Shown here: positions 1-63,200 of the stretch, piece by piece
How positions within the stretch are numbered: position 1 is the stretch's first letter
Layout of the letters: every line of letters begins with the position of its first letter
From: Psychroserpens damuponensis
Lineage (GTDB): Bacteria; Bacteroidota; Bacteroidia; Flavobacteriales; Flavobacteriaceae
Assembly: GCF_000826655.1 (NCBI RefSeq)
Contig: NZ_JXJO01000010.1
Location: 1 to 64,000 of the forward strand
Direction: 5' to 3'
Length of the DNA: 64,000 nt
Position numbers and translations under genes: made by a program
Notes under the pieces: model-generated
Database searches by the model: none
The model's input: the letters and a program-made list of their open reading frames with translations, nothing else
What the model was told of the DNA's origin: nothing

Positions 1-2926
1 TACCATCTGGTGTACCATCATCACAAACTTCTAAGGCTATTGGATCAGCGATGATAGGTAAAGGGTTTACTATTAAATCAAAATTACCCACATTAGAACA
101 ACCTGTTGCTGTATTTGTAATATTTACAAAAATGGTTTCTAGATTACTTGTATTACTATAAAGCGTAGGCAAAGGATTTAAACCATCAACGGCATCAGAT
201 AACGATTCGTGATAGCTCACTGTAACTCCTGTTTGTCCATCAATCGCTTCCGCATCTTTGGTTGAAAGATCAAACACTTCGGTTTCATCTCCAGATAAAT
301 TATCATCACAAAGTTGATAATCTGAAATTGTACCTACAGAAGGTAATGGATTTACAAATAATACTAATTCTACGGTTTCATAACAACCAGAAATATCATC
401 AGTAACCCTAACGTGCAATGTTTGAGAACCTGCTGATATATTACTATAAGGACTGGTTTTAGGATTGACACCATCAATAGCTTCGGTAGGCGTTTCATGA
501 TAGGTCACTGTCATTCCTGTTTGTGTCCCTAAAATTTCAGCATCTTTTGTAGTTAAATCGAATATTGAAAAACCATCGTTATCATCATCACAAATTTCAT
601 ATTGAGTCGGAGTTAATGGCACTGGTAGTTCATTTACTATTAATTCTAATGAGGTTGTATTATAACAATCTGCACTGAGATTCGATTGCACCCTTACATA
701 TATGGTTTGGTTATCAACCATCACATTTGTATATGAAATAGGTAGAGGATTAATTCCATCAATAGCATCTGTCGAAGAAAAATGATAAGACACGGATACC
801 GTTCCAGGATCTAAAACATCGATAACTTCTAAATTCGCATCTGTTAAGGTAAACGTTGCGAAACCATCAGCATTATCATCACAAATTTCTAAAGGTGTTA
901 GAGCTGTATTAATATTCAAATTTGTAAACTCCAAATTAAAGGATGTTGTATCATAACATTCTTGAGATAATTCTGCCATACGAACATAGATTGTTTGCGG
1001 ATTTGAATCATTTGTGTATGGACTTGTCAATGGATTAACATTATCAATTGCATCTTGTTCCGAGTAGTGATAACTAATTACAAAATCTGCTGAGTTTTGA
1101 GTTCCTAGAATTTCAGAATCATTATCTGTAAGCATAAATTCACCAACTCCATCTGTACTACAAACGATCATATTTGGTGGTGTATTTGGGTCTGGAATAG
1201 GTTTAAATTCAACTACTACAGAATCATTTGCTTGACAAATTCCAGAAAAGATAACATCTACAGCATAAATTCCAGACTCTGTTACATTTAAAGTAGACCC
1301 TGTTTCTCCTGTAATTACAATTCCATCTTTATACCAAACATGAGTTGCCGTTGGTGTTTGAGTATCTAAAAGAATTACAGCTCCATCACATTCTGCAGTA
1401 CCTGCAGCGATTGTAATATCATCACCTAAATCACCTCCTAAATCAAAACTTCCTGCTTTTAAAAATACCCCAGAATCTAGAGACGTATCAGAAGCATCAG
1501 CAACTACTAATTTTATATGATACGTATCACCAGGAATAACAGCAGATTGAGCTGTAAATACAGCTGTACGACCATCAAAGCTCATTGGAGCTTGAGGAGG
1601 TGTAGCGTTATCATATGGCACTGTCATATCTGGCCATTGTGTATAACCACCAAAATATTGTTCATTAATAGCATTGCAACCTGAATTATCTGGATGGATA
1701 TTTGTTACTAAAATAGGAGTTGTAGTTGCAGGTAATACTGCTAAATTAGTAACATTACCAGCAGCATCGGTTAATAAAAAAGCAAAGGCATCAGAGTAGG
1801 TACATTCAAAAGACCCTCCACTATAACCATTATATTCTTCCGAAGCCATTAAAAAATCAAAGCTGATACTATCTGCTAATGGCACAAAATCAAATTCTAT
1901 GATAGAAGCATTATTTGACCCAATACCGACAGCAGTATCTAATTCTGTGTCACCTGGCCAATTCGAACCACCTTCACTTAATGCATTATCATTAGGTCCT
2001 CTTGCATTAGCTGCGTTACCAGAAGTTAATAACAGCCCATCAGTAAATGGAAATAACGTGCCATCATTTATAAAATAACCAATACCATTATCGTCACCAA
2101 AATCGGTTCCTGTTGAAGATGAAATATTACTAATTTGAGCGCAATCACTATTGACAAGTACATCCTCAACTAATTCTTCTATTGTATAGGTTGTTTGATC
2201 AACAACAATATTTTCACCAACTATAAATACAGATATCGTTGTAGTCTCAGTACATCCTATAGGATTGTCATCTGTAACTATTAAAGTGACTGTATAAGTT
2301 CCTGGAGCCGTATATGTATTTGATACTGTTGTACCAGTATCTGTATTAGAGTCTCCAAAATTCCACTCGTAAGTTGCACCTGTTCCATCTGTAGAAAAGT
2401 TTGCGCTACCATTGAATGTAATGACTTCACCAACATTTGCTTGAACAGAACCCGAAGAGTTCATTTCAGGTATTGTACTATCTATTGAGGGAGTAATGGT
2501 TTGACAAGGTACTGCACAAATTATATCAGCCTCCCAACCTGTTGTGGTTCCTGAGTCATTTGAAACAAATTCTATTGTAATACAGCCGCTTGTGTTAGTA
2601 TCTGATGCAACTATTGTACCTGGATTATTGGCGCCATTGTACGAACCTATGATAGGAGCTGACGTATCATCACCATCATAAATTGTTAAGACATCTACAT
2701 TAAGTTGTGTGCTAAAAGACAAGAAATCTAGGATTATAAATTCTCCTGCATTTGAAGCACAAATTGTAGTCACAAAATTTTCATCACTACCATAGGCTCC
2801 TCCTGCACCACCAGAATCATAAAATTTATCTGGAGCACACCTATTAAAACTTCCATTTTGCATATTTAAATCTTGTGCAAAGGAAAAACAAGAACATAAG
2901 ACAAGTAGTAAGTAAAGCTTTTTCAT
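1..2926 (-). CDS. Large secreted repeat adhesin, choice-of-anchor L type (C-terminus outside window)
   Basis: About 975 residues are visible; the frame is open to the window edge. The ATG at 2926 opens a signal peptide (MKKLYLLLVLCSCFSFAQ). It is followed by a CUB-like domain (about 30-140), a PKD domain (about 150-237, motif YEWNFGD), and a choice-of-anchor L region (about 240-490, with MASEEYNGYSGG). Next comes an Ig-like stretch and then at least four copies of a roughly 95-residue unit (about 565 onward). Each unit carries a C-[SD]-D opening, an SYH-x-S/E-x-x-[DE]-A-[IV]-D motif, NPL and a TI-[YF]-V element. Such proteins are normally very large, surface exposed and exported by the type IX system with a C-terminal sorting domain; that part is not visible, so T9SS export is inference. 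The likely role is adhesion or gliding. Family assignment is firm; the ligand is unknown. Confidence 0.85.
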   Translation of the reverse strand, partial: MKKLYLLLVLCSCFSFAQDLNMQNGSFNRCAPDKFYDSGGAGGAYGSDENFVTTICASNAGEFIILDFLSFSTQLNVDVLTIYDGDDTSAPIIGSYNGANNPGTIVASDTNTSGCITIEFVSNDSGTTTGWEADIICAVPCQTITPSIDSTIPEMNSSGSVQANVGEVITFNGSANFSTDGTGATYEWNFGDSNTDTGTTVSNTYTAPGTYTVTLIVTDDNPIGCTETTTISVFIVGENIVVDQTTYTIEELVEDVLVNSDCAQISNISSSTGTDFGDDNGIGYFINDGTLFPFTDGLLLTSGNAANARGPNDNALSEGGSNWPGDTELDTAVGIGSNNASIIEFDFVPLADSISFDFLMASEEYNGYSGGSFECTYSDAFAFLLTDAAGNVTNLAVLPATTTPILVTNIHPDNSGCNAINEQYFGGYTQWPDMTVPYDNATPPQAPMSFDGRTAVFTAQSAVIPGDTYHIKLVVADASDTSLDSGVFLKAGSFDLGGDLGDDITIAAGTAECDGAVILLDTQTPTATHVWYKDGIVITGETGSTLNVTESGIYAVDVIFSGICQANDSVVVEFKPIPDPNTPPNMIVCSTDGVGEFMLTDNDSEILGTQNSADFVISYHYSEQDAIDNVNPLTSPYTNDSNPQTIYVRMAELSQECYDTTSFNLEFTNLNINTALTPLEICDDNADGFATFTLTDANLEVIDVLDPGTVSVSYHFSSTDAIDGINPLPISYTNVMVDNQTIYVRVQSNLSADCYNTTSLELIVNELPVPLTPTQYEICDDDNDGFSIFDLTTKDAEILGTQTGMTVTYHETPTEAIDGVNPKTSPYSNISAGSQTLHVRVTDDISGCYETVELVLFVNPLPSVGTISDYQLCDDNLSGDETEVFDLSTKDAEAIDGQTGVTVSYHESLSDAVDGLNPLPTLYSNTSNLETIFVNITNTATGCSNVGNFDLIVNPLPIIADPIALEVCDDGTPDG

Positions 2927-3253
2927 AGTATTTGAAAATAGTTTTAAACCTATTATTTAACTTACAATCATCATATTAAATTGAATAGATGAAATCTATA
3001 TCTTAAAATAAAATTACTTTAAAAAGCAAATGCAATCAAGTTATAGGTAGAGGTTTTCATAATAAGAGCGAAATTTAATAAAAATTAAAGGAAACACAAT
3101 TGTTAAATCGTTATAATATAAACAGTTTAACAGTTTAATTTCCTAGCACTCTTCAAAAATTAACTCTTGCCAGTGATTTTTATTTTATTCTTAGCGCTAA
3201 TTTTAAAAAGTTATGATAATCTTAAAATGGTGTTAATTGCGTTTTTTGTTGCT
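2927..3253. other. Intergenic gap between divergent genes, no gene seen
   Basis: This AT-rich stretch separates the minus-strand adhesin from the plus-strand nfu gene. I see no coding frame, tRNA or strong hairpin. It must carry both promoters. Only weak matches to the TTG/TAnnTTTG promoter pattern are visible on the adhesin side. Confidence 0.5.
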
Positions 3254-3261
3254 TATTTTTG
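3254..3261 (+). promoter_or_regulatory. Candidate -7 element for nfu
   Basis: TATTTTTG matches the Bacteroidota -7 consensus TAnnTTTG and lies 14 bases before the ATG at 3276. No good TTG is present at the -33 position. The TTG at 3237, which could be read as an early start codon, lies upstream of this box, so translation should begin at 3276. Confidence 0.4.
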
Positions 3262-3275
3262 CAGAAACAAATTCA

Positions 3276-4178
3276 ATGAATACGTATTCAATCTCAATAA
3301 AAGAAACCACAAATCCTTCAATTGTAAAATTTGAAGCCAATCAATTTATTACTCAACACGAGAGTTTTGAATTTAATAATATTGATGAGGCTAGCTCATC
3401 GCCTTTAGCTCAACAATTATTTTATCTTCCATTTGTTAAAAAAGTATATATCTCAAGTAATTTTATTGCGATAGAACGTTTTAATATTGTTGAATGGGCA
3501 GATGTTCAAAATGAAGTTGCAGAGCAGATTGAGACCTATTTAAACTCTGGAGCTTTGATCGTTAAAGTTTCCGAAGAAAAAAAGAAAACACCTGTAACTA
3601 TTTATGCCGAAAGTACACCAAACCCATCGGTACTAAAATTTGTTGCCAATAAAAAATTGGTAACAACTACACATGAATTTACATCAATTGATGATACTAA
3701 ATTTGCACCATTAGCAGCAGAGCTTTTTCATTTTCCTTTTGTAAAAAGCATCTTTATTGATGAAAACTTCGTGTCTATAACTAAGTTTGATATTGCTGAA
3801 TGGAATGAGATCACTATGGAACTTAGGGAGTTTTTGAGAAGCTATATTGAAAATGGCAAAACCATTATAGATCCAAATGCGCCTGAAACGAAATCAAAAC
3901 AGAGTGACCAATTAGATCTTGATTATGAATCTAAAGATGACACATCTAAAGAAATCATAAATATTTTGGAAGAATATGTAAAACCAGCTGTTGCTAGTGA
4001 TGGTGGAAACATAGAATTTCAATCATATGATCCAAAAGAAAAAAAAGTAAGTGTAATTCTACAAGGTGCTTGTAGTGGTTGTCCATCGTCTACTTTTACA
4101 TTAAAAAATGGCATCGAAAACATGCTTAAAGAAATGATGAAAGGCAAGGTTGAAACCGTTGAAGCTATCAATGGATAA
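3276..4178 (+). CDS. NifU/Nfu-family iron-sulfur cluster scaffold protein
   Basis: This 300-residue protein should bind and hand over Fe-S clusters in the cytoplasm. It has two tandem Nfu N-terminal domains (about 5-95 and 108-200; each has an [ST]-T-P-N-P-S motif and a 'PLAAELF.FPFVK'-like segment). A C-terminal NifU domain (about 220-300) carries CSGC at Cys266 and Cys269, the usual cluster ligands. A duplicated N-domain is a form I recall from other Bacteroidota. The start at 3276 is preferred over an in-frame TTG at 3237 because the homologous domain begins right there and a -7 box lies between. No SUF or ISC genes are adjacent. Confidence 0.9.
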   Translation: MNTYSISIKETTNPSIVKFEANQFITQHESFEFNNIDEASSSPLAQQLFYLPFVKKVYISSNFIAIERFNIVEWADVQNEVAEQIETYLNSGALIVKVSEEKKKTPVTIYAESTPNPSVLKFVANKKLVTTTHEFTSIDDTKFAPLAAELFHFPFVKSIFIDENFVSITKFDIAEWNEITMELREFLRSYIENGKTIIDPNAPETKSKQSDQLDLDYESKDDTSKEIINILEEYVKPAVASDGGNIEFQSYDPKEKKVSVILQGACSGCPSSTFTLKNGIENMLKEMMKGKVETVEAING

Positions 4179-6808: not shown

Positions 6809-8113
6809 CTATTCGTCAGTAGATTCGGTCGTTTTATTTGCACTCCCTTTTTGGGATATTTTATCGCCTGGTTTAAGAATTTTTGAAACCATATTGTAAG
6901 GTCCTGTAATAATTTCAACACCTTCACTTAAACCAGATACAATTTCTATATTGGTATCGTCCTGAATTCCTGTTGTTACTTTTTCTAATTTGGCTACACC
7001 ATTATCGTTTACAAAGACACATTCAAATTTTTCTTCATCTTCGGCTTTAATTTCTTCGGAAACGGATACTTTACTTCCCGCTTCTTTCTTTTTCATTTCA
7101 GATTCGGTTTTAATCACAATAGAACTAATAGGAACCGCAATAGAGTTATCTCTTTTACTTGTAATAATATCTACAGTTGCTGTCATACCAGGTCTAAATG
7201 GCGAATAAGATTCTGGTTTCCCTTCTATTAAATCGGCATAAGATTCTTCAACAATTCTAACTTTCACTCTAAAATTAGTCACTTGATCTGCTGTTAACGT
7301 ACTAGCCGCTGAGTTTGCTATTTCAGTAACAACGCCTTTAAACTCCTTTTTTAAATAGGCATCAACTTCAACGATGGTAGAATCACCAATTTGAACTTTT
7401 ACGATATCATTCTCATTGACGTCAACTTCTACTTCCATATTGTTTAGGTTGGCAACTCTCAAAATTTCTGTACCAGCCATTTGTTGCGTTCCCACAACAC
7501 GCTCACCTAATTCAACATTAAGCAAAGAAATAGTGCCACTCATTGGCGCATAGATTGTTGTTCTTCCTAAATTATCTTTTGCTTCATTTACAGTAGCTGC
7601 TGCACTTTGTACGCTATAATAGGCAGAGCTTCGTGATGCTGTAGCGGTTTCATAAGCTGCAATAGCTCTATCCCAATCTGCTTTAGAAATCACACCTCTT
7701 TCAAAAAGAGATTTATTTCTATTATAGTTTGATTTTGCTTCTTTAAGTGATGCGTCTGCTTGTTCTAATCCAGCTTTTACATTTTGGTAAGATGCTTGAG
7801 ATCTATTCACTGCAGATTGTATTAAATCTGGATTAACTCGAACTAAGAGGTCACCTTTTTTAACTTGCTGACCTTCTTTAAAAGGAAGATCTAAAATCTC
7901 ACCAGAAACTTCACTAGATATTTTAACTTCAACTTCTGGCTGTATTTTACCTGTTGCAGAAACCGTTTCGATAATATCTAATAGAGCTACTTTTTTAAAC
8001 TCTACTTCTTTAGAATTTCCTTTTTCACCGAACATTCCCATTGATTTTCCTGCGATTAGTGCAATTAGCAGTAATACAACAATGCCGAGAATAATTTTAG
8101 TACTTTTAGTCAT
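6809..8113 (-). CDS. Periplasmic adaptor (HlyD/MacA family) of an ABC efflux system
   Basis: This 434-residue membrane-fusion protein links an inner-membrane pump to TolC across the periplasm. It has an N-terminal membrane anchor (about 7-24). A lipoyl half-motif comes next ('VSATGKIQPEVEVKISSEVS'), then a long coiled-coil hairpin (about 100-185, rich in Ala/Gln/Asn), the second lipoyl half (TIYAPMSGTISLLNVELGER), a beta-barrel domain and a membrane-proximal domain. It sits 5 bases after TolC and is the second adaptor in this operon. A short charged insertion (Lys/Glu-rich, about 335-360) lies in the membrane-proximal domain. The substrate is unknown. Confidence 0.88.
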   Translation of the reverse strand: MTKSTKIILGIVVLLLIALIAGKSMGMFGEKGNSKEVEFKKVALLDIIETVSATGKIQPEVEVKISSEVSGEILDLPFKEGQQVKKGDLLVRVNPDLIQSAVNRSQASYQNVKAGLEQADASLKEAKSNYNRNKSLFERGVISKADWDRAIAAYETATASRSSAYYSVQSAAATVNEAKDNLGRTTIYAPMSGTISLLNVELGERVVGTQQMAGTEILRVANLNNMEVEVDVNENDIVKVQIGDSTIVEVDAYLKKEFKGVVTEIANSAASTLTADQVTNFRVKVRIVEESYADLIEGKPESYSPFRPGMTATVDIITSKRDNSIAVPISSIVIKTESEMKKKEAGSKVSVSEEIKAEDEEKFECVFVNDNGVAKLEKVTTGIQDDTNIEIVSGLSEGVEIITGPYNMVSKILKPGDKISQKGSANKTTESTDE

Positions 8114-8118
8114 GGTTT

Positions 8119-9561
8119 TTAAAACTTTAATTCTGTAGCTGGGATTCCGAAGTATAATTCGAGAACCTTTAACTTAAATATATAATCGTATTTAGCACGA
8201 TTAACTTCAATTTTTGCATTATCAAATCTTAATTTAGATTGGCTAAAATCGAACGCATTTGTTAATCCAACATCATAACGCTCTTTTGCATAATCATAAG
8301 CCAATTCTTGAGATTCTAACGCTGTATTAGCTGCTTCAAAAGATTTTAAAGCGCCTTTAGCATCTACATATGCTTGATACACGGTAGATTCTAAATCTAA
8401 TTCTGCTTGTTCTAATTGAAATTCAGATAATTGTAAATTTATTTTACTTCTCTTAATACTAGCTTTAGTAGAAAATCCATTAAAAATAGGGATATTTAAA
8501 TTAAGACCGTATCCAATACCGTCATTTAAAGATAATTGATCTATAAATGGATCTGCTCCTGTTTCTCTTAGAATTGTGTTTGGAAATTCTCCAACAACAG
8601 ATTGACCTGTGGCTTCTACGACTCCAATTTGTGAAATTGTAACTGGATTATCTGGATCTATTTCTGAAATGAAAGATGAGTTATTGGTATATCTCGTATT
8701 ATAACCAAAAAACGCTGTGAGTGTAGGCAAGTTTGCTCCTTTAGCTATTTGCACATCCTTTTTGGCTAATTCCACATTTTGCTCAGCTATTTTAATTTCA
8801 GAACGAGACTCTTTAGCTTTTGCAAGTATCTCTGAAATATCTTTATCTGCAATACCTCCATCTACAACATCATAACCTTCATCTTGAATATCAAAATTTT
8901 CATAATCTTTAATAAGAAGTAATTGAGCCAAGCTAATAAGTGAAATTTGAACTGCATTTTCTGCATTAACAATGCCTTGTTTTTCAGTAGCATCTGTCGC
9001 TTGAATTTCAAGTAAATCTCCTCTTGGCAAAGACCCAGCTTCTACCAATTGTTTTGTTCTATCTATTTGCTCTTGAGTGACTCCATTTTGAGATTGTAAA
9101 ACTTCTAAATTAGCTTTATTTAAAATAATTTGAAGGTAACCATTAGCAACAAACAGCGAAATATCATCTTTCATTTTATCTAAGCGATACTGGCTTGCGA
9201 GTTTTGAGATTTCTGCTCTCTGTAATGTTCTTACATTTCTAAGACCATCAAATAAGGTATAACCTACATTAATGTTTCCGCTGGCAGACAAAAATGTTTC
9301 TGTTTGCGCATTATTTGTTACCGGATTAAAGTTAAGACCTGTACTTTCTGAAACACCTGCACCTACATTTAAACTCGGTAAAAAATTACCAACTGCTGTT
9401 AATTTATCTATATCGGCAGTTGCGAGATCTAATTCGCTTTGTTTTACTGAAATATTATTTTCCAAAGCATACTCAACACATTCAATAAGTGTCCATTTTT
9501 TATCTTGAGCTTGCGAGCTTATTGTTATTAAAACAATTAATATACTGACTATTTTTTTCAT
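8119..9561 (-). CDS. TolC-family outer-membrane efflux protein
   Basis: This 480-residue protein should form the trimeric outer-membrane channel of the exporter. It has a signal peptide (about 1-18, ending SSQA). Two homologous halves follow, each with the long helices and short beta strands of the OEP family. The typical motifs are 'WTLIECVEYALENNISVKQS' at the start of the mature protein and 'AKERYDVGLTNAFDFSQSK' near the end. Its place between the two adaptors and downstream of the permeases supports a MacAB-TolC-type tripartite pump. Confidence 0.9.
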   Translation of the reverse strand: MKKIVSILIVLITISSQAQDKKWTLIECVEYALENNISVKQSELDLATADIDKLTAVGNFLPSLNVGAGVSESTGLNFNPVTNNAQTETFLSASGNINVGYTLFDGLRNVRTLQRAEISKLASQYRLDKMKDDISLFVANGYLQIILNKANLEVLQSQNGVTQEQIDRTKQLVEAGSLPRGDLLEIQATDATEKQGIVNAENAVQISLISLAQLLLIKDYENFDIQDEGYDVVDGGIADKDISEILAKAKESRSEIKIAEQNVELAKKDVQIAKGANLPTLTAFFGYNTRYTNNSSFISEIDPDNPVTISQIGVVEATGQSVVGEFPNTILRETGADPFIDQLSLNDGIGYGLNLNIPIFNGFSTKASIKRSKINLQLSEFQLEQAELDLESTVYQAYVDAKGALKSFEAANTALESQELAYDYAKERYDVGLTNAFDFSQSKLRFDNAKIEVNRAKYDYIFKLKVLELYFGIPATELKF

Positions 9562-9616: not shown

Positions 9617-10774
9617 TTATTGAGCGTAATCTGGCATTCCTTGTATTTGGTTCCAAACTTTAATTTTATCGTCTTTATTTATTCCACTTTTTACTTCTAC
9701 ATAAATACCATCACTTATACCGAGTTCTACTTCTCTTCTTTCAAATTGTTGATCTCCAGTTTCAATTTCAACATAAGGCTTTTTAGTCTCATCATCATAT
9801 TGAACAAGGGCTTCTTTGATGGCTAAAACCTTTTCTGCTTTTTCTAATATAATGGATGCGTTTGCACTTAATCCAGCTCTAATAAAAGTAGAATCTATAT
9901 TTTTAAGCGATCCTTTTATTTCAAATTGAATGGCTCCATTCTCAGCGACTCCTTTTGGTGCAATATAATCTAACACAGCATCAAATGTTTTGTTTTCTAT
10001 AGCTCCTACTGTGATCTCTAATGGTAAATCTTCTTTGATTTTACCAACTTCACTTTCGTCTACTTTTCCTTCAAAAATCATTTGTTTTACATCTGCTAAC
10101 GATGCAATAGACGTACCTTCATTAAAATTATTTGCTTCAATAACTTGGTTACCTGCTTTTACTGGAACATCTAAAACCATCCCAGAAACGGTTGCTCTTA
10201 CTTGTGTTTGTGCAATATTGCCTAATCCGCTAGTGGTACCAGTTTTTATAATATCATAATTTTGACTTGCCGAATTCACATTTATTCTCGCTTGTTCAAC
10301 AGCTTGTTTTGTTTGTAAATACGTGTTCTTTACGCCTTCAAAATCGTTTGCCGAAATCACTCCTTTTTCAAACAATTCTTTTTGCCTATCATAGTTAGAC
10401 TGTTGTGTTTGTAAATTGATTTTAGCCGTTTGAAAAGCAGTTTGATTAGATGCAATATTATTTTTTGCACTTGTTAATGATGACACATTAGGAATGACTC
10501 TAATTTGTGCAATTAAATCACCTTGTTTCACATATTCACCAGCTTCAATAAATACTTCTTCTATAACACCAGAAATATTTGGCTTAATTAATATTTCTTC
10601 CTTCGGAACAATACTACCTGTTGCCACCGTTTTAACTACAATGGTTTGCTCTGATGGGCTCTCTGAAGTGTATTTTATCGGATCTTCTTGATTTTTTTGC
10701 CACAAATAATATAATGCGCCACCAAACACGACAACGATTAATATTAATATGATTATAGTTCTAGTTCTTTTCAT
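9617..10774 (-). CDS. Periplasmic adaptor (HlyD/RND-type membrane-fusion protein)
   Basis: This 385-residue adaptor has one N-terminal membrane segment (about 5-23). A lipoyl half follows ('TVATGSIVPKEEILIKPNIS'), then a coiled-coil hairpin (about 100-175), the second lipoyl half ('VRATVSGMVLDVPVKAGNQV') and a C-terminal beta-barrel region. It is more compact than the second adaptor at 6809-8113 and only distantly similar, so the two are paralogues rather than a recent duplication. It follows the permease genes after 37 bases and precedes TolC by 55. Confidence 0.88.
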   Translation of the reverse strand: MKRTRTIIILILIVVVFGGALYYLWQKNQEDPIKYTSESPSEQTIVVKTVATGSIVPKEEILIKPNISGVIEEVFIEAGEYVKQGDLIAQIRVIPNVSSLTSAKNNIASNQTAFQTAKINLQTQQSNYDRQKELFEKGVISANDFEGVKNTYLQTKQAVEQARINVNSASQNYDIIKTGTTSGLGNIAQTQVRATVSGMVLDVPVKAGNQVIEANNFNEGTSIASLADVKQMIFEGKVDESEVGKIKEDLPLEITVGAIENKTFDAVLDYIAPKGVAENGAIQFEIKGSLKNIDSTFIRAGLSANASIILEKAEKVLAIKEALVQYDDETKKPYVEIETGDQQFERREVELGISDGIYVEVKSGINKDDKIKVWNQIQGMPDYAQ

Positions 10775-14378: not shown

Positions 14379-14927
14379 TTAAATATAATATGGCGCAATC
14401 ATAATATATACAATAACACCAGTAACAGCAACATATAACCATAAGGGAAATGTGATCTTAGCAATCCTTTTATGTCGCTCAAAATTATTAGTAATAGCTC
14501 TCACATAGGTAATCAATACAAACGGAATGATTACAATAGATAATAATATATGTGTAAATAATATAAAATAATAAACGTATTTGATTACTCCTTCACCTCC
14601 AAATTTTGTAGAGTCACTCGTCATATGATAAGCAACATACATCACTAAAAATGATACCGACAACCAAATAGCTGTTTTCATTAAACGTTCGTGATCAATT
14701 CTATTTTTCTTCTTTATTGCAATTACTGCCAAAATTAGCACCAATGCAGTAAGACCATTAATGGCAGCATATATTGGAGGCAAAAACGTTAAAGGCTCTA
14801 CTTCAATACCAAAATCTTGCAATTTTACTCTTGATAAAATGGCCACAACAACTGGAATCACAACGGCCAAAAGCACAATCCATTTATTGTATTTTTTTTC
14901 TTCGGAAGGATTTTCTATAGAACTCAT
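14379..14927 (-). CDS. DUF420 membrane protein, likely cytochrome oxidase assembly factor
   Basis: This 182-residue protein has five predicted membrane helices and a cytoplasmic N-terminus. It belongs to the DUF420 family, whose Gram-positive relative CtaM is needed for cytochrome oxidase assembly. Conserved histidines occur in the helices ('HERLMKTA', 'YHMTSD', 'FTHILLS', 'FERHKRIAK'), as expected for metal or heme contacts. It lies 4 bases downstream of the Sco gene, so it is in the same operon. The exact reaction is unknown. Confidence 0.85.
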   Translation of the reverse strand: MSSIENPSEEKKYNKWIVLLAVVIPVVVAILSRVKLQDFGIEVEPLTFLPPIYAAINGLTALVLILAVIAIKKKNRIDHERLMKTAIWLSVSFLVMYVAYHMTSDSTKFGGEGVIKYVYYFILFTHILLSIVIIPFVLITYVRAITNNFERHKRIAKITFPLWLYVAVTGVIVYIMIAPYYI

Positions 14928-14931: not shown

Positions 14932-15687
14932 TTAATCTTCTTTTAATAGTTTAGCAATATCTGCTTTAAGCATACTTATTTCTTCTGTTTCACCATCATC
15001 ATCAACTTTTTCTTCTTCGGAAATAACACCTTTATAGAAAATTTTAGGGTTACCAAAATTATCTTGTCTAGATCGCATAAAGCCGTTTTTATCAATAAGC
15101 GCGAAATTTCCTGAATGCTCAAATCCATCCTCTACTTCTGGATTTTCTCCTGCATAGATATTAAAACCAATATTTGCTAATTCATAAATTGCCTCTTGAT
15201 CTCCTGTCATAAAATGCCAATTTGGATTGGTCACCTTGTGATTTTCGGCATATTTATATAACACTTCTTGAGTATCATATTCTGGATTTATGGTAAATGA
15301 AGCAACTCCGAAATCTTTAGAATCTAAAAACGTATTTTGAATTTCTACAAGGTTTCTATTCATTCTTGGACAAATGGAACCGCAGGTTGTAAAGAAAAAT
15401 TCTACCAAATACACTTTACCTTCATAATCTTTGTTAGTAATCACATTTCCGTGGTGATCAACAAAAGAAAAAGGCGGCACTTTTTTAGGCGCTCCATTAA
15501 TTTCTAAAAACATTAAATCTGCTACAAAACCTTCGGCATTTGACGATACTTTTTCTGACCTGCTCTCAGATCTTATTACATCTCCACCTTTTATTCTATC
15601 TACAATTTTAGGAATAAAAATAATTCCGAAAACTAAAAGAACAAGTGCAATTCCTACGAAAGAATAGTTTGTTTTTTTTGTGCTCAT
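14932..15687 (-). CDS. SCO1/SenC-family copper chaperone
   Basis: Sco proteins deliver copper to, or reduce, the CuA site of cytochrome oxidase subunit II. This 251-residue protein has one N-terminal membrane anchor (about 9-29) and a periplasmic thioredoxin-like domain. The copper ligands are Cys102 and Cys106 in TTCGSICP, and the distal histidine is in FEHSGNF. The position between a degenerate paralogue and DUF420 fits oxidase assembly. The target CuA subunit is encoded in the respiratory operon (43602-44663). Confidence 0.93.
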   Translation of the reverse strand: MSTKKTNYSFVGIALVLLVFGIIFIPKIVDRIKGGDVIRSESRSEKVSSNAEGFVADLMFLEINGAPKKVPPFSFVDHHGNVITNKDYEGKVYLVEFFFTTCGSICPRMNRNLVEIQNTFLDSKDFGVASFTINPEYDTQEVLYKYAENHKVTNPNWHFMTGDQEAIYELANIGFNIYAGENPEVEDGFEHSGNFALIDKNGFMRSRQDNFGNPKIFYKGVISEEEKVDDDGETEEISMLKADIAKLLKED

Positions 15688-15725: not shown

Positions 15726-16442
15726 TTAATTGGTTTCTTTTATATCTCCTGCTCTTCGTGATGCCGAATCAAATTCACCTTTACGTTTTTGACGATATTC
15801 AGTAAATAGAATTCTTAAATCATCACTCATTTTATTTTTAATTTCGGCAACCTCAATACAATCGTATGAATAAAGTGGGTATGCGACGTGTTGTTGTTCT
15901 TTCTCTTGATCTGTTCTATCATCTAATCGTCCACGTTGTTTTAAATCTTGATCAATAATAAACACATGATCAGAAAATAAATTTTGGTCAAGCGACTCTT
16001 CTATTTTAAGGCTTTCAAAAACTTTTTTAATATCGTTAGGTTGTCCAAAAACATAATGCCAAAAACGCATATCGTCATAATTATTTATTTCATCTTGTAG
16101 CTGGTCTGCTTTGGCTTCTGTTCCTTTTGGCAATACAATTACAATTTGAAATTTTTTAAAGCCTTTAAACTTATCGTAAACTAGTTCTTTTAGGTTTGAA
16201 GCTGCTATCACTTGGTTTTCTGGCTCATTTCCGAAGAACGCAATAATCGTGATATAATCTTTTAGGCGAATGTCTGTTTCAGAATTTGAAGTAAACAATT
16301 CGAGATCTGCTACCTGTTGTTTTTTTACAATATTTAAGGGTTCGTAATTGTGTGTAGATGGATATAACATCAACAAAAAAGCCACAGGCAAAAAGAATAA
16401 AATGACTAGTACGAGGTAACGTTTAATTTTGCGTATTTCCAT
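15726..16442 (-). CDS. Membrane-anchored Sco-like protein lacking the copper cysteines
   Basis: This 238-residue protein has one N-terminal membrane helix (about 9-27) and a periplasmic domain with thioredoxin-like features. Strand 'YITIIAFFGN' stands where Sco proteins have the CxxxC segment, and 'HVFIIDQDLKQRGRLDDR' resembles the Sco segment with 'IDKNGFMRSRQD'. The CxxxC is absent and the only cysteine is near residue 195, so a copper-transfer role like Sco's is unlikely. It precedes the true Sco gene by 38 bases. Homology to Sco is my inference from pattern and context. It has its own -7 box just 4 bases before the ATG. Confidence 0.75.
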   Translation of the reverse strand: MEIRKIKRYLVLVILFFLPVAFLLMLYPSTHNYEPLNIVKKQQVADLELFTSNSETDIRLKDYITIIAFFGNEPENQVIAASNLKELVYDKFKGFKKFQIVIVLPKGTEAKADQLQDEINNYDDMRFWHYVFGQPNDIKKVFESLKIEESLDQNLFSDHVFIIDQDLKQRGRLDDRTDQEKEQQHVAYPLYSYDCIEVAEIKNKMSDDLRILFTEYRQKRKGEFDSASRRAGDIKETN

Positions 16443-41783: not shown

Positions 41784-43577
41784 TTAGTGCTGTAACTCTT
41801 CTTCACCGTCCTTTAATGGAACGTTTTGAGGTACAAAGTCTACATCGTGACCAGGTTTACTGTAATCGTACGACCAACGGTACACGTGAGGTATATCACC
41901 TTCCCAGTTACCGTGAATATGTTCTACTGGAGTAGTCCATTCTAACGTTGTAGATCTCCAAGGGTTTTGAACTGTACGTTTTCCGAAGAAAATTGAATAG
42001 AAGAAATTCCATAAATATACCAACTGAAATGCTCCTCCAATAATAGCAAATATAGTAATCACTACATTAGCATTGGCTAAATCATCAAATAATGGGAAAT
42101 TAGAATTTGTATAGTAACGTCTTGGTAAACCTGCCATTCCAATAAAGTGCATTGGGAAGAAAACTCCGTAAGCACATATAGCAGTTACCCAAAAATGAAT
42201 ATACCCTAAGTTTTTGTTTAGCATACGACCAAACATTTTTGGGAACCAATGATAGATTCCTGCAAACATACCATAGAGTGCTGAGATACCCATTACCAAG
42301 TGGAAATGCGCAATTACAAAATAAGTATCGTGTACGTTAATATCTAAGGCACTATCTCCTAAAATGATACCTGTTAAACCACCTGTAATAAAGGTTGAAA
42401 CAAAACCAATAGAAAATAACATGGCCGGATTCATTTGTATATTACCTTTCCATATGGTGGTTATCCAGTTAAAAGCTTTTACTGCGGAAGGTATTGCAAT
42501 TAATAATGTTGTAAATGTGAACACAGAACCTAAGAATGGATTCATGCCTGAAATAAACATATGGTGACCCCAAACGATAGTTGAAAGGAATGCAATTGCA
42601 AGAATTGACATAATCATGGCTCTATAACCAAAAATAGGTTTACGCGAGCTGGTTGCCATAATCTCTGAAACTAATCCCATGGCTGGTAAGATTACGATAT
42701 AAACTTCAGGATGCCCTAAGAACCAAAATAGATGTTCAAATAAAACTGGAGAACCTCCTTGATAGTGTAATACTTCACCCTGTATAAATATATCTGATAA
42801 GAAGAAAGATGTACCAAAACTTCTATCCATTATAAGTAATAATGCTGCTGATAATAATACTGGAAATGATACGATACCAATGATAGCCGTTACAAAAAAC
42901 GCCCAAATTGTTAAAGGTAATCTCGTCATAGACATCCCTTTAGTACGTAGGTTTATAACAGTTACCACATAGTTTAAAGATCCCAATAAAGAAGAAGCAA
43001 TAAATATAGCCATAGAAACTAACCACAATGTCATACCCATTCCTGATCCACCAGATGCCATTGGCAATGCACTTAACGGTGGATAGATTGTCCAACCTGC
43101 TGCTGCTGGTCCTGCTTCAACAAATAATGAAATAATCATGATTACGCTTGACAAGAAGAATAACCAATATGACACCATGTTTAAGAAGCCTGAAGCCATA
43201 TCTCGCGCTCCAATTTGTAATGGAATTAACAAGTTACTAAATGTACCACTCAGACCAGCTGTTAATACAAAGAATACCATAATAGTACCATGAATGGTTA
43301 CTAATGCTAAATAAATATCTGCATCCATAACACCTCCTGGAGCCCATTTACCTAACAATGCCTCAAAAAGGACATTTGGTTCTTCTGGCCATGCAATTTG
43401 CATACGGAACATTATTGACATTAAAACACCAATAACTCCCATAATTGTACCCGTAATAAGGTACTGCTTTGCAATCATTTTATGATCTTGACTAAATATA
43501 TATTTAGTTACAAAAGTCTCTTTATGATGATGTCCGTGATCGTCGTCGTGTGCGTGAGTATCTGCGTGTGCTGACAT
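41784..43577 (-). CDS. Cytochrome c oxidase subunit I
   Basis: This 597-residue catalytic subunit reduces O2 to water and pumps protons. It has the low-spin heme and CuB/heme a3 histidines in 'VTIHGTIMVFF', 'WFLGHPEVYIVILPA', 'WGHHMFISGM' and 'FVIAHFHLVMG'. The His-Pro-Glu-Val-Tyr motif gives the cross-linked tyrosine of A-type oxidases. The N-terminus is His/Asp-rich (13 of the first 24), likely metal-interacting. It is the last gene of the eight-gene respiratory operon. Confidence 0.97.
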   Translation of the reverse strand: MSAHADTHAHDDDHGHHHKETFVTKYIFSQDHKMIAKQYLITGTIMGVIGVLMSIMFRMQIAWPEEPNVLFEALLGKWAPGGVMDADIYLALVTIHGTIMVFFVLTAGLSGTFSNLLIPLQIGARDMASGFLNMVSYWLFFLSSVIMIISLFVEAGPAAAGWTIYPPLSALPMASGGSGMGMTLWLVSMAIFIASSLLGSLNYVVTVINLRTKGMSMTRLPLTIWAFFVTAIIGIVSFPVLLSAALLLIMDRSFGTSFFLSDIFIQGEVLHYQGGSPVLFEHLFWFLGHPEVYIVILPAMGLVSEIMATSSRKPIFGYRAMIMSILAIAFLSTIVWGHHMFISGMNPFLGSVFTFTTLLIAIPSAVKAFNWITTIWKGNIQMNPAMLFSIGFVSTFITGGLTGIILGDSALDINVHDTYFVIAHFHLVMGISALYGMFAGIYHWFPKMFGRMLNKNLGYIHFWVTAICAYGVFFPMHFIGMAGLPRRYYTNSNFPLFDDLANANVVITIFAIIGGAFQLVYLWNFFYSIFFGKRTVQNPWRSTTLEWTTPVEHIHGNWEGDIPHVYRWSYDYSKPGHDVDFVPQNVPLKDGEEELQH

Positions 43578-49004: not shown

Positions 49005-52000
49005 CTATGCTTCTGTTGTATTTCTCACTTTTGTATGATACTGCACATTTGGCTTAGTACCAACATACTCTAACAAGTGATACATACGATCATCTTCTTT
49101 AAGTTTTGCAACTTTACTTTCTTTATCATTGATATCACCAAATACCATTGCTCCACTACTACAAGCTGCAGAACAAGCTGTTTGGAATTCTCCATCTTTG
49201 ATAACACGTCCATCACGTTTTGCATCAAGAATAGTTTTTTGTGTCATTTGAATACACATAGAACATTTTTCCATCACACCACGAGAACGTACTGTTACAT
49301 CTGGGTTTAATACCATACGACCTAAATCGTCATTCATGTGGTAATCAAACTCATCATTTTTGTTATATAAGAACCAGTTGAAACGTCTAACTTTATATGG
49401 ACAGTTGTTTGCGCAATAACGTGTACCTACGCAACGGTTATAAGCCATATGATTTTGACCTTGACGACCATGTGAGGTTGCTGCCACAGGACATACTGTT
49501 TCACAAGGTGCATGATTACAATGTTGACACATTACTGGCTGGAAAGCAACTTGAGGATTATCTGCTGGATTTTCTAATTCACCAAATCCACCTAAAGATC
49601 CTTTATCACCCCAAAGTCCTGAAAACTCTTCTTTTTTAGTATCATCTTCAGCAAAGGTATCTTCCGAAGAATAATATCTATCAATACGCAACCAATGCAT
49701 ATCACGACTACGTCTAATTTCTTCTTTTCCAACTACTGGCACATTGTTTTCTGCATGACATGCAATAACACAAGCACCACATCCTGTACAAGAGTTTAAA
49801 TCTATAGATAAGTTAAAATGATGTCCTATTGAACGATCAAACTCATCCCATAAATCTACTTCTGGAGAGGTCACTTCTACCTCTTCATGGTTTAAAGATA
49901 CTGTAGGCACTCTATTCCATACATTTCTATCTTTTGTATTAAAGATTTCTAAGGTTGTTTCCTTTATAATATCTCCACGACCCATCAACGTATTTTGCAA
50001 TTGTACGCATGCAAATTCATGCGTTCCCGCTGCTTTTTTAATGGAGACTCTTTGAGTTGTATTAAAATCTTGGTATAACGGATAAGCGTTAACACCAGTC
50101 ATCATTTCTGATTTTAAACCTGCCGTTCTACCATAACCTAGGGACAATCCTATCGAGCCTTTAGCTTGACCAGGTTGAATAATTACAGGCACATTATTAA
50201 CAGTAACTCCATTCACAGTTACATCTGCATAACTACCATCCAAAGCTCCTGTCGCAACATGATTATTTTCTAATCCAGCTGCTTCTGCATCTGCTGCAGA
50301 AATTGTTAAATAATTATCCCAAGAGGTTCTTGTAATTGGATCAGGAAATTCTTGTAACCAAGGATTATTAGCATCTTGACCATCACCCATACCAACTTTA
50401 GTATATAATGACAACTCTAAACCATCTGCCTTGGCAGACGATGCTAATGTTCTTGCTGCAGTTCCAGCATTAATTGCACTAACTCCAAAAGCTCCATTTG
50501 ATCCACTAGTGGTTGTTGAAGACGATGTTGTAGTTACATACTCATCTTTATCTTCATCCTTGATACCAACTCCTACAGCAACGTCATGTATAACGCCTCC
50601 TAAGAAAGTTCTATCTTTTTTATCCTTTAATTCAGTTGATGTTTCCGTAGTAATCGTTGATGATCCATTTGGAGCACTAGAAAACGTACCAGAAACATAA
50701 ACACCATCTTGCAATGCTTTATTGAAAGAACCACCAGACCATCCAGATTTAATATATTCTCTGTATGTTTTATCGCTTCCTGTCCACATTAATAATGCTT
50801 GTTGGAATTGACGAGTATCGAACAACGGACGAATTGTTGGTTGCATTAAGCTGAAATGTCCTTTCTTTATTTCTACGTCTCCCCAAGATTCTAAGTAATG
50901 AGGTGCAGCTGCAATATATCCAGCTTTAGTCGCTGTTTCATCAGCCTTCATTGAGAACGCAATAGATAATTCTGTTTTTGCAAGACCTTCAGCAAATTCT
51001 GAAGCATTAGGTAAAGAATACATTGGGTTAACACCACTCATGATGATACCACCAACGTTTCCAGCTTTCATGTCTGTTACTAATTTAGCAACTGCTGCAT
51101 TATTACCTTGTCTTGTTAATATTGGTGTTGAAGCATCAAACGCTTTACTGTTCAGTTTTTCATTGATTGCTAATGCCACTGTTTGTGCATTTACATCTTG
51201 AATTCCTGTAACTAAAACTCCGTTACTTCCTGCTTTACTTAATTCTGAAGCAGCATTCTGAACTGCTTTATTAATATGTTCTGGTAAATCTGTTGCTGCA
51301 GATCCTCCAACAACTAAGCTATATAATTTTGCTAAAACTTGTTTTTGTTGACTTGGTGTTAAAGGCACACGTTTATCTGCGTTTGCTCCAGATAATGACA
51401 TATTTGACTCAAACTGAATATGTCTCGACATTTTTCCGTTCTTCGGAACACGTCCTTTTGCATATCCTGAATCAAATCCTCCACCTTGCCAATCTCCTAA
51501 GAAATCTGCTCCTACTGACACAATTGTCATTGCTTTAGAGAAATCATAACTCGCTAATCCGCGAATACCATAATTTCCTTGAAACGCATCTAATGCTGCC
51601 GATTCTGAAACCGCATCATATACGACATGACGAACATTTCCGTATTTAGATTTAAATTCTGCAATTAACCTTGATGTAGAAGGTGACGCATAAGTTTGAG
51701 TTAATAACACAATTTGCTTCCCTGCACTTTTTAGTTCGGTTAATTTCTGATTAGTTTCTGAATCAAAAGTTTCCCATGTGATAGCACTTTCACCTTTCAT
51801 AGGACCTTTAACTCTCAAACTATCATATAATCCTAATACAGAAGCATTAACTCTTGCATTAGCACTATTGTGTGTTTTTGCTAAGTCGTTGTTTTCAATT
51901 TTGATAGGACGACCTTCACGTGTTTTAACCAAAACACTAGCGAAATCAAAACCATTTGCAATTGTTGTTGCATAATAATTAGCAACACCAGGAATTATAG

Positions 52001-54414: not shown

Positions 54415-54433
54415 TTCCGAAGTTATTCCGAAG
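54415..54433 (+). repeat. Intergenic pair of the over-represented octamer TTCCGAAG
   Basis: TTCCGAAG occurs at 54415-54422 and again at 54426-54433, same orientation, 11 bases apart, in the gap after infB. The octamer or its complement occurs 24 more times, starting at 1838, 3569, 7054, 8145, 10601, 14900, 15015, 16229, 19672, 20013, 20368, 23009, 27078, 30222, 32335, 38003, 38430, 39737, 41991, 49662, 51441, 58051, 61066 and 62199. Confidence 0.7.
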
Positions 54434-57318: not shown

Positions 57319-58551
57319 TTAATCTTCGAATTCTTCTTTAAGAATTCTTATAACGTCAATAATCGTTTCTTCTTCTAAATCTGTTCTTTTCACAAGATCA
57401 ACAACATCTTGTTCCAAAATACTTTTTGCAGTATCTAAACCTGCTTTACTAAATTCTGCGATAACCCATCCTTCGATTTCATCTGAGAATTCTGACAACT
57501 CTACATCTTCTTCTGCACCTTCTCTAAACACATCAATTTCAAAACCAGTTAATTTACCAGCTAATCTAATGTTATGTCCTCCTCTACCAATAGCCTTAGA
57601 AACCTCTTCTGGTTTTAATAACACTTCGGCACGTTTATTTTCTTCATCTAACTTAACAGATGTCACTCTTGCAGGACTTAATGCTCTTGTAATAAACAAT
57701 TGCAAGTTATTAGTATAATTAATAACATCAATGTTTTCATTTCCTAATTCACGAACAATACCATGAATTCTAGAACCTTTCATACCTACACATGCTCCAA
57801 CAGGATCAATTCTATCATCATAAGAATCTACTGCCACTTTCGCTTTTTCTCCAGGTATTCTTACAACATGTTTAATTGTAATTAAACCATCAAATACTTC
57901 AGGGATTTCTTGTTCAAACAACTTCTCTAAAAATGCAGGTGCAGTTCTAGACATTATAATTGCTGGCTTATTTCCTTTTAATTCAACACTTTCAATAATT
58001 CCTCTTACATTTTCTCCTTTTCTAAAAAAGTCTGATGGTATTTGTTTATCCTTCGGAAGGATGATTTCATTACCGTCATCATCTAACAAGATAATTGCTC
58101 TGTGACGAATATGATGAACTTCGGCAGAATAAATTTCTCCTTCAAGCTCCTTAAAGTGCTTATATATATTCGTGTTATCGTGCTCATGAATTTTAGAGAT
58201 TAAGTTTTGGCGCAATGCTAAAATTGAGCGACGTCCCAAATCTATTAATTTCACCTCCTCTGCAACATCTTCACCTACTTCAAAATCTGGTTCTATTTTT
58301 TGAGCTTCAGACAATGCAATTTCTTGATTAGGCTCTTCAACCTCTTCATCTGCCACAACAATTCTATTTCTCCAAATCTCTAAATCTCCTTTATCTGGAT
58401 TTATGATAATATCAAAGTTATCGTCATCGCCAAATTTTTTCTTCAATGCATTTCTTAATACATCTTCCAAAATAGCCATTAGCGTTACACGATCAATTAA
58501 TTTATCGTCCTTAAATTCTGAAAACGAGTCAATTAACGCAATATTTTCCAT
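57319..58551 (-). CDS. nusA: Transcription termination/antitermination factor NusA
   Basis: NusA binds RNA polymerase and modulates pausing, termination and rRNA antitermination. The 410-residue protein has the N-terminal RNAP-binding domain, an S1 domain ('GEIYSAEVHHIRHRAIILLD'), and two KH domains (with 'VGMKGSRIHGIVRELGNENID' and 'IGRGGHNIRLAGKLTGFEI'). It ends with a short acidic tail, and lacks the C-terminal acidic repeats of E. coli. It follows rimP by 9 bases. Confidence 0.96.
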   Translation of the reverse strand: MENIALIDSFSEFKDDKLIDRVTLMAILEDVLRNALKKKFGDDDNFDIIINPDKGDLEIWRNRIVVADEEVEEPNQEIALSEAQKIEPDFEVGEDVAEEVKLIDLGRRSILALRQNLISKIHEHDNTNIYKHFKELEGEIYSAEVHHIRHRAIILLDDDGNEIILPKDKQIPSDFFRKGENVRGIIESVELKGNKPAIIMSRTAPAFLEKLFEQEIPEVFDGLITIKHVVRIPGEKAKVAVDSYDDRIDPVGACVGMKGSRIHGIVRELGNENIDVINYTNNLQLFITRALSPARVTSVKLDEENKRAEVLLKPEEVSKAIGRGGHNIRLAGKLTGFEIDVFREGAEEDVELSEFSDEIEGWVIAEFSKAGLDTAKSILEQDVVDLVKRTDLEEETIIDVIRILKEEFED

Positions 58552-60187: not shown

Positions 60188-60290
60188 ACAATTTTTTATA
60201 AAAAAATCAAAAAATGGTAACCTTTACTTAAAATCAGTAGTGCTTTTGATAATTATTCTTAATTTCGCTCGCATTAAATAGACATGTTTT

Positions 60291-63200
60291 ATGATACATT
60301 TCAATTTCAAGAAATGGAATACCATTTTAGGATGGTTTGCCTTTACCATAGCATTAATAACGTACGCGCTAACTATAGAACCTACCGTTAGTTTCTGGGA
60401 TGCAGGGGAATACATCCTTACCTCATCAAAATTACAAGTTGGCCATCCACCTGGTGCACCTTTATTTCAAATGTTGGGAGCTTTCTTTTCTATGTTTGCT
60501 TTAGAACCTTCTCAAATTGGAGCAATGCTTAATATGATGAGTGCAGTATCAAGTGCATTTACAATACTATTTATGTTTTGGACGATTACTATTTTGCTAA
60601 CTAAATTAGCTAAAGTAGCAAGCCCTAAACAAGAAAACTCAAAACAAAAAGCTTATCAAGACTTATCAAAAAATCAATATATCGCCATTTTAGGCAGTGC
60701 TTTAGTTGGTAGTTTGGCATTTACTTTTACCGATTCATTTTGGTTCAACGCTGTTGAAACAGAAGTTTACGCCATGGCAACTCTCATCATGGCCATCCTA
60801 TTTTATTTAGGATTGCGTTGGGAAGCAGATATGCACGAGCCTAGAGGTCATAGATGGTTGATTTTAATCGCATTTGTAATTGGGCTATCATTTGGAGTTC
60901 ACTTTATGGGTCTATTAACAATCCCAGCATTAGGCTTACTTTATTATTTTAAAAATTACAAAACTGTAACGATTGTTAATTTCATATTAGCTAATGTCAT
61001 AGCTGCTGCGATATTACTCTTTATATTTAAATTATTACTTCCAAATGCATTATTGCTTTTTAGTGCTTCGGAAATTTTCTTCGTCAACACAATTGGCCTT
61101 CCGTTTAACTCTGGATCTATAATTACCGCACTACTTTTGGTTGCCGCGTTCTATTTCGGATTAAAATACACACGTGATAAAGGGTATAAATATGCAAACA
61201 CGTTAACTCTTTGCTTAATATTTATATTTATTGGTTTTTCATCTTGGGTCATGCTACCAATTCGTGCCAATGCTAATGTTATTATTAATGAGAACAATCC
61301 GTCTAGCGCAAGAGAATTATTAGCATATTATAATTTAGAACAATACCCTGAAACACACTTGTTTTACGGACCACTATTTACAGATCAATACACAGGTTTA
61401 GACGAAAACAATCCTTATAAAGATGCAAAGCCTAAATATGAAAAAGATTATGACAAAGGCGAATATGTAATCGTTAACAACTGGAAAAACGCTGAGCAAC
61501 GTTACAATTCAAAGCAAGCATCTATCCTCCCAAGAATGTGGAGTACAGAACATGCCGAAAACTACATGATGTTTACAGGTTTATTAGATTTTAGAATCAA
61601 ACCTGAGTATCAAATGGAAAATCAGGTTCGACAATTGGTTAATGAATTTAAAAATGAAGTCGCCCAAGGCAATGTTGATTATGAAGATTATCACAATTTT
61701 TTAAAACAATTTGGTAGAGACTTTTTAGTTATAGAAAAGCCATCGTTTAGCGACAACCTATACTATATGGTAGATTACCAACTTGGTTATATGTATTGGC
61801 GCTATTTCATGTGGAATTTCTCTGGACGTCAAGATGATATTCAAGGAAAATACGATGACTTACATGGCAACTGGATTAGTGGTATAGATTTTATTGATGA
61901 AGCTAGACTTGGCATGTCACAAGATAATTTGCCTAGTGATGTAGCCAACAATAAAGCTAGAAACACCTATTATATGCTACCGTTAATTTTAGGTATTATA
62001 GGCTTTCTATTTTTATTAGGACGCGATCCAAAACGCTTTTGGGTATTACTCGTGTTCTTTTTGTTTACAGGACTTGCCATTCAATTTTATACCAACGTAA
62101 GACCTTTTGAACCTCGCGAAAGAGACTACTCTGTAGTAGGTTCGTTTTATGTATTTGCCATATGGATTGGTTTTGGTGTCTATGCCATTTTTGATATGCT
62201 TCGGAAATTTACCAGCTCCAAATTTTTAGCTCCTGCCATAACCATAGTTTGCTTGTTATTAGTTCCTGGTGTTTTAGCAGCCGAAAATTGGGACGATCAT
62301 GATCGCTCAGAAAAATATACAGCACAAGCCATGGCACGAAAATATCTAGAATCTTGTGCGCCAAATGCCATCCTCTTTACTATTGGTGATAACGACAGTT
62401 TCCCATTATGGTATTTACAAGAAATTGAAGGGGTACGAACAGATGTTCGTGTTGTTAATACGAGTTTATTTCAAACCGATTGGTATATTGACCAAATGAA
62501 GCGTAAGGCTTATGAGAGTGACCCAATTCCTTCTCAATTAACTCATGATCAATACAAATATGGAACTCGTGATTATATCATGAAATATGAAATCACCAAA
62601 GACACTATGATGATTAAAGAGTATATGAATTTCATATCTAATGATGATCCTAAGTACAGTCTTAAATATGCCATGCAACGTAGAGGAGAAGACCCAAATG
62701 GTTATCCTGCACAATTACAAAACTCAAATTATTTACCAACATCTCACGTTAGAATTCCGGTAAACAAAGCTGCCGTTCTTGAAAATGGAGTGGTTAAACA
62801 AAAAGATGCAGAGAACATAGCACCGTTTATCGATATCAATATTTCTGGTGGTGCTTTATATAAAAACAGGTTATTAATGTTAGATATCGTAGCAAATAAT
62901 GATTGGAAACGCCCTATCTATTTTACTGGAGGCGCTTTTAGCGATGAAGATTACATATGGATGAAAGATTATTTACAGCTCGATGGATTATGTTATAAAC
63001 TCGTGCCTATAAAAACACCTGTAGACAGAGCAAATCCTTTTGATATGGGACGTGTAGATTCAGATCTTATGTATGAAAAAGTCATGTCATGGGATTGGGG
63101 AAATAGTGGTAATGACAATATTTATCATGATGTTGAAACTCGTAAAAACGGCATCACTTATAGAGGAAATCTCGCGAGACTTTTAGAACAATTGATCAAT

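Follow-up and report, generated by a model that had tools for sequence, protein, structure and literature searches.

A stretch of the Psychroserpens damuponensis genome (Flavobacteriaceae; assembly GCF_000826655.1, contig NZ_JXJO01000010.1, positions 1 to 64,000, hereafter the window) raises a simple question: why is a single octamer, CTTCGGAA, repeated there far above chance? We argue that it forms the core of a self-recognition sequence of the DNA-uptake type. We assign this reading, which comes from comparing sequences, a probability of about 0.6.

The octamer occurs 26 times in the window, 13 times as CTTCGGAA and 13 times as TTCCGAAG on the plus strand, and 26 of the 28 heptamers carry the extra base. 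Our recount thus reproduces exactly the numbers given in an earlier description made from the letters alone (the sequence-only reading). Its estimate from base composition, one or two copies in 64 kb, is close to the chance level obtained from 100 dinucleotide-preserving shuffles of the window (mean 1.28, largest 4) and to the order-3 Markov expectation of 1.17, a model under which no other 8-mer of the window is as strongly over-represented. As had also been described, the copies occur in different frames (S-E, F-G-N, V-P-K, and P-S-E) and are not confined to genes: 24 lie inside open reading frames (ORFs) and two share one intergenic gap, at 54415 and 54426.

The window sits on contig C2 of the genome under study (G000, 3.95 Mb; G-numbers are handles of the compared genomes). 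A genome-wide count, named beforehand as a check, leaves the enrichment standing: the 3,945,764 bases hold 741 + 779 = 1,520 copies on both strands, far above the 103 + 72 = 175 copies of the reversed word used as a control. In a 282-kb sample with 121 copies, Markov models of orders 4, 5, and 6 expect 22, 62, and 111. Orders 5 and 6 are an unfair null because they are built from sub-words of the motif itself. In the count that included mismatched forms, perfect copies number 279 against an expected 12.9, and all 24 single mismatches pooled number 463 against 342. Among the mismatched forms, CTGCGGAA and CTACGGAA are enriched 6.6- to 9.6-fold, core position 3 being the loosest.

Structure, arrangement, and conservation of the motif

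A longer motif, about 34 bp in all, surrounds the octamer core: T9-CTTCGGAA-ATnTnAAnnCTnnAAA, with nine T-rich bases on the 5' side and preferred bases on the 3' side to about +24. The motif was derived from 73 pooled intergenic copies of two species, G000 and G008, the latter being a relative with a complete genome. Scored with a cross-species flank profile, the sites of the other species average +3.8 and +4.8, compared with -7.7 and -10.5 for four pooled control octamers. The 16 intergenic copies of CTGCGGAA/CTACGGAA also have motif-like flanks (mean score 1.8 vs -8.2 for controls, p 4e-5). Three similar longer stretches of G008 (L164:13188, L174:3979, and L176:19597) contain the core and, by eye, have flanks in common to its left and right; these stretches may represent cassette-type sites or a repeat family of their own.

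The motif is non-polar, and on this point the sequence-only reading had rightly set it apart from the FtsK-orienting polar sequences (KOPS). Genome-wide the strands are balanced at 741/779, and no polarity was seen in G008 sampled at 28 places, where 150 of 308 copies are on the plus strand. In these 28 stretches octamer orientation has no link with GC skew: the plus strand holds 49 of 103 copies at a skew above +0.02 and 81 of 158 at a skew below -0.02, with the other 47 copies lying between. Neighboring copies tend to point in opposite directions, adjacent ones being opposite in 172 of 275 cases in G000 (0/2000 permutations) and 165 of 280 in G008 (19/2000). Most pairs with a distance of 26-300 bp are facing ones (16/26 and 24/41, respectively; 0/2000 permutations each), and in the intergenic pairs inspected the intervening sequence differs, by eye, from pair to pair. 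Together, the flanks on both sides of the core and the facing pairs suggest recognition of duplex DNA.

Among intergenic gaps, those between convergent genes are densest in copies (1.07 and 1.67 per kb in G000 and G008). Tandem gaps hold 0.58 and 0.68 per kb, and divergent gaps, which contain promoters, the fewest, 0.30 and 0.47. These are small numbers, 35 sites per genome, and 4 of 39 G008 sites lie outside gaps between two called ORFs. The densities speak against promoter sites, because such sites would give the reverse pattern.

Conservation at orthologous sites had been named as a further check. At 78% nucleotide identity, 17 of 21 G000 copies are intact in G008, compared with 195 of 1240 (15.7%) 8-mers of the same composition. 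In the reverse direction 17 of 30 G008 copies are intact in G000, and intact copies in other relatives number 6 of 9 (G018) and 2 of 4 (G007). Among the named relatives found, Arcticiflavibacter (Psychroserpens) luteus is the closest, with 93% identity in a 1084-aa oxidoreductase-like protein. The region of the window compared more widely has nine sites; four of them, all coding, have coverage in most of 21 relatives. Sequence was retrieved from 20 of 22 relatives, without G004 and G017. At these four, 84 comparisons gave 24 exact octamers, 57 ungapped alignments with another octamer, one gapped alignment, and two unaligned cases, and the replacing octamers mostly differ by one to three bases. 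As 81 of the 84 are ungapped and 57 of them have another octamer, coding copies arise and decay by substitution.

Some regions lack the motif. A 38.1-kb stretch of G000 contig C1 (161745-199848; GC 0.299 vs 0.330) has no copy. Judging by its ORFs, which resemble glycosyltransferase and other polysaccharide genes, it is an exopolysaccharide/O-antigen cluster. A domain scan of five of its proteins found an O-antigen ligase, an MBOAT, a sugar transferase, and a Wzt-like protein; the fifth had no match. A 19.6-kb void on contig C10 covers a SusC/SusD-glycosidase (polysaccharide-use) locus. Polysaccharide clusters of such kinds are frequently acquired by transfer.

Distribution among the Flavobacteriaceae

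We initially regarded the motif as genus-specific on the basis of 296 genomes across the phylum, where the maximum outside the genus was 483 copies, in G204, with a higher control there. Wider sampling of Flavobacteriaceae genera overturned this. Treating a genome as enriched if its copies number 400 or more and reach 2.5 times the reversed control, we found the core strongly enriched in 38 of 395 sampled genomes of the family, belonging to 17 of 203 genera (genera and genomes were counted by hand). The richest genome, G583, has 2,678 copies. It is from one of three other genera sampled for flanks, and its flank differs: only one of 30 cores in 40 kb is followed by AT. In stretches of G390 the extended form CTTCGGAAAT is present in 9 of 13 cores. 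For 50 of 80 named loci that were submitted, 48 genomes of named near relatives were searched, and CTTCGGAAAT is clearly enriched only in P. burtonensis and Subsaximicrobium.

Within the genus, motif-rich genomes are scattered over several clades of a tree (FastTree, four proteins, 21 of 23 genus genomes; support values not examined). The basal group of G014, G005, G011, G006, G003, and G015 is entirely motif-poor, and other poor genomes, G010 and G012 among them, are placed elsewhere. We looked for a substitute 8-mer dialect in low-copy members of the genus (16 sampled relatives, 80 named loci) and found nothing comparable, save a set in G016 and simple-repeat words. CTRCGGAA was rejected as a replacement dialect, since its count broadly tracks that of CTTCGGAA instead of replacing it. 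The G016 set (L120-L123, 80-kb sample) comprises CACACTCA, ACTGACGA, CACAAGCG, and other over-represented 8-mers, and perhaps derives from one repetitive gene family.

The opposite situation occurs in genus g149, where CTTCGGAA is scarce: G326, G547, and G730 have 7, 5, and 10 copies vs 54, 60, and 98 of the reversed word. Site avoidance is a possible cause of this scarcity. In viruses, a 14-base form of the motif matches at least 120 stretches; the 80 stretches listed contain one match apiece, so no listed virus has several copies.

Uptake machinery and rival explanations

All 23 genus genomes encode a ComEC-domain protein (open frame of 678-707 aa), and DprA was found in G000. The PF00437 pilus/secretion ATPase (E below 1e-40) was detected in 9 of the 39 motif-rich genomes and in 11 of the 41 others. 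It is missing from the remaining 30 motif-rich ones, G008 and G583 being among the genomes without it. These 80 genomes were hand-picked from those already counted, and the survey covered this ATPase family of the pilus machinery. The family cut-off gives 21 of 80, the extra genome, G548, at 25.4 bits being treated as absent. Presence of the ATPase is not associated with the motif in this set, and we disfavor the type IV pilus as a general reader. Riemerella offers a possible alternative. According to the sections of PMC8459023 used here, Riemerella anatipestifer transforms, pilus homologues were not detected in it, and transformation of Riemerella requires ComEC, DprA, ComF, RecA, and four proteins that do not resemble known uptake machinery; homologues of these four are listed there in Psychroserpens. 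Riemerella columbina favours its own DNA (PMC7965970, in part). Since the ATPase is missing from most motif-rich genomes, while Riemerella transforms without detected pilus homologues and prefers its own DNA, we propose a non-pilus receptor.

The non-polar duplex motif, its somewhat higher density where the sequence can vary freely, its retention at orthologous sites, the two cluster voids, and the difference in flank between genera form the pattern to be expected if self DNA is imported preferentially and then recombined. We infer that reading of the motif takes place during DNA import and that its reader is something other than a type IV pilus. A putative surface DNA receptor would bind the duplex at the T-tract, the core, and then the downstream A/T-rich segments. 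Self DNA bearing the motif would be imported preferentially via the ComEC route and then recombined. Because imported tracts would more often hold perfect copies, recombination would raise the genome-wide copy number wherever sites tolerate them. A broader claim, judged from the sequences and falling slightly short of an even bet, is that this could be the third family of natural DNA uptake sequences and the first in Bacteroidota, patchy in Flavobacteriaceae, with flank dialects and a non-pilus outer-membrane receptor, probably belonging to the uptake system that mutagenesis revealed in Riemerella. As of 2006, uptake sequences were unknown outside Pasteurellaceae and Neisseriaceae, according to the excerpt of PMC1626085 consulted. 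In the open-access literature we found no earlier report of the octamer or, going by titles and by PMC7965970, of an uptake sequence in Bacteroidota or Flavobacteriaceae.

Several observations weigh against this reading. The density of the octamer (0.39 per kb in the G000 genome, 0.55 in the G008 sample) is below the approximately 1 per kb of known uptake sequences. Raw single-mismatch copies exceed perfect ones, which are ahead only after background subtraction. There is no bias to gene ends, the outer deciles holding 42 of 243 and 52 of 236 coding copies, unlike in Pasteurellaceae, where such a bias is described (PMC2346458, in the part used). Copies lie 2-3 kb apart on average, and their spacing is barely more regular than random (coefficient of variation 0.86, 0.94, and 0.89 on three contigs omitting gaps above 15 kb), or less regular with the two largest gaps included (1.83, 0.94, and 1.18). 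Copy numbers range from 278 to 2,174 among the 23 genus genomes, and in samples from 17 of them the motif leads the 8-mer ranking in only five, takes second and sixth place in one genome each, and stands further down in ten. Among the control octamers, CTTCAGAA with its 4 intergenic sites scores +3.2 under the pooled profile, i.e., has motif-like flanks. G000 itself encodes a full-length T2SSE/PilB-type PF00437 ATPase (C19:26142-27251), so a pilus reader is possible in this genome. Finally, Flavobacterium johnsoniae was not transformable in the conditions of PMC7965970, as far as the part used here reports.

Two other explanations concern the origin of the copies. A preference for certain codons or amino acids, e.g., Ser-Glu, could multiply the octamer as a by-product, and indeed coding copies, which run both ways relative to genes, mostly belong to four frame/strand classes without arginine codons (xSE, SE, FG, and PK). 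We shuffled synonymous codons within genes 50 times, taking ORFs from a simple longest-ORF script with no gene finder. Only 13.1 +/- 3.7 copies were left vs 243 observed (536 ORFs, 683-kb G000 sample), and 16.9 +/- 4.1 vs 266 (476 ORFs, 560-kb G008 sample). This rules out a codon-pair origin, which the sequence-only reading had also dismissed. TCG makes up 6% of Ser codons in G000, yet 62 of 117 in the nCT-Ser-GAA context, and the motif is denser in non-coding than in coding DNA, 1.47- and 1.48-fold in the two samples (a weak difference, p 0.045 and 0.027). Already contradicted by the shuffles, this explanation has next to no chance of being right. Spreading of a small mobile element or repeat by insertion is very improbable, if not to the same extent. 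Facing pairs about 100 bp apart look like terminal inverted repeats, the core lies inside the three longer repeats of G008, and many relatives show alignment gaps at the window's intergenic sites, so insertion is possible there. The ungapped alignments described above (81 of 84, 57 with another octamer) rule it out for the four coding sites, to which this verdict is limited. In the intergenic pairs inspected, moreover, the sequences between copies differ, and neither target-site duplications nor shared internal sequence were seen by eye.

The remaining two accept the motif as a functional site but give it another reader. In a Chi-like recombination hotspot, the octamer would be read single-stranded by an AddAB/RecBCD-type enzyme that switches from degradation to RecA loading. 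The size of the word, its hundreds of copies, mostly in genes, the conserved backbone sites, and its absence from two large clusters all agree with this. Chi sites known so far are rich in G and for the most part follow the direction of replication; the octamer is not G-rich, is split 741 vs 779 between the strands, and has no link with GC skew. Its long flanks on both sides and its facing pairs suggest duplex recognition, and its enrichment appears and disappears among genera of one family. We therefore consider a Chi-like role distinctly unlikely. A binding site of an abundant chromosome-organizing or DNA-repair protein, with no role in import, would suit the even strand split, the genome-wide spread, the T-tract flank, and the facing pairs 26-300 bp apart. 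By itself it leaves unexplained both the enrichment in some genera vs scarcity in others and the absence from whole gene clusters, and we regard it as unlikely.

Copies in the window and comparison with known systems

Positions of all copies in the window are listed in Table 1. Three of them fall within a 2505-aa ORF (26080-33597), whose size is reminiscent of SprA, a protein of gliding and type IX secretion.

Table 1. Octamer copies in the 64-kb window
Feature	Position	Strand	Context
core CTTCGGAA	1838..1845	-	coding (ASE)
core	3569..3576	-	antisense in ORF 3237-4178
core	7054..7061	+	antisense in efflux adaptor ORF 6809-8113
core	8145..8152	-	sense in TolC-like ORF 8119-9561 (YFGI)
core	10601..10608	+	antisense (VPK)
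core	14900..14907	+	antisense (PSEE), preceded by T-tract
core	15015..15022	+	antisense (ISEE); copy 115 bp off has same orientation
core	16229..16236	-	sense (FFGN), extended CTTCGGAAAT
core	19672..19679	+	sense (LFGN), T-tract and AT extension
core	20013..20020	+	sense (SSE)
core	20368..20375	-	antisense (ISEA)
core	23009..23016	-	sense (PSE)
core	27078..27085	-	in 2505-aa ORF (SFGN)
core	30222..30229	+	antisense in 2505-aa ORF (ISED), extended CTTCGGAAAT
core	32325..32332	-	in 2505-aa ORF (DFGK)
core	38003..38010	+	antisense (PSEV)
core	38430..38437	-	sense (PSE)
core	39737..39744	+	antisense in P450 ORF; intact in P. luteus, most other relatives not covered
core	41981..41988	-	sense (FFGK), cytochrome oxidase I; exact in 9/21 relatives
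core	49662..49669	-	sense (SSE), molybdopterin-oxidoreductase-like 1084-aa ORF; exact in 7/21 relatives
core	51441..51448	+	antisense (VPK), molybdopterin-oxidoreductase-like 1084-aa ORF; exact in 4/21 relatives
core	54415..54422	-	intergenic, extension CTTCGGAAATGTAA
second intergenic core	54426..54433	-	direct copy, 11 bp from 54415 copy
core	58051..58058	+	antisense (LPK); exact in 4/21 relatives
core	61066..61073	+	sense (ASE), extended CTTCGGAAAT
core	62199..62206	+	sense (LRK), extended CTTCGGAAAT

With the motif, two questions become directly testable: by what route Flavobacteriaceae import DNA when they lack a pilus, and whether tags for self-recognition have independent origins. The motif may also serve as a computable marker of those Flavobacteriaceae that are naturally transformable now or were so recently.

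Among known systems, KOPS have a strong replichore polarity, whereas the octamer has none. Chi sites are alike in being short octamers with many copies at conserved backbone positions. Riemerella, which PMC7965970 and PMC8459023 place in the Flavobacteriaceae, prefers its own DNA and has uptake genes without pilus homologues (same papers, both in part). No uptake motif is established in the part of PMC7965970 used, where the k-mer table holds only A/T-rich words.

The sequence-only reading had cautiously called the octamer DNA-uptake-like or repair-linked, and its distribution does share most, not all, of the hallmarks listed for uptake sequences in the consulted sections of PMC1626085. The DNA uptake sequence (DUS) of Neisseriaceae, GCCGTCTGAA, read by the pilin ComP, is alike in the scale of copy number and the lack of orientation bias (PMC1626085) and in its spread over a family with dialects (PMC3630211, in part). 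The DUS core is unrelated to CTTCGGAA, and no ComP-type reader is expected in the 30 motif-rich genomes that lack the pilus ATPase. The uptake signal sequence (USS) of Pasteurellaceae has the core AAGTGCGGT or ACAAGCGGT where the octamer has CTTCGGAA. The octamer differs from it in being flanked on both sides, with a T-tract on the 5' side, in its lower density, in its Bacteroidota host, and in the lack of a clear type II/IV pilus ATPase in 30 of the 39 motif-rich genomes examined. The USS, with AAGTGCGGT followed by AT-rich segments on the 3' side, resembles the octamer in copy number, lack of orientation bias, AT-rich flanks, close opposite pairs, origin by point mutation, and spread over a family, as described in the same sections of PMC1626085.

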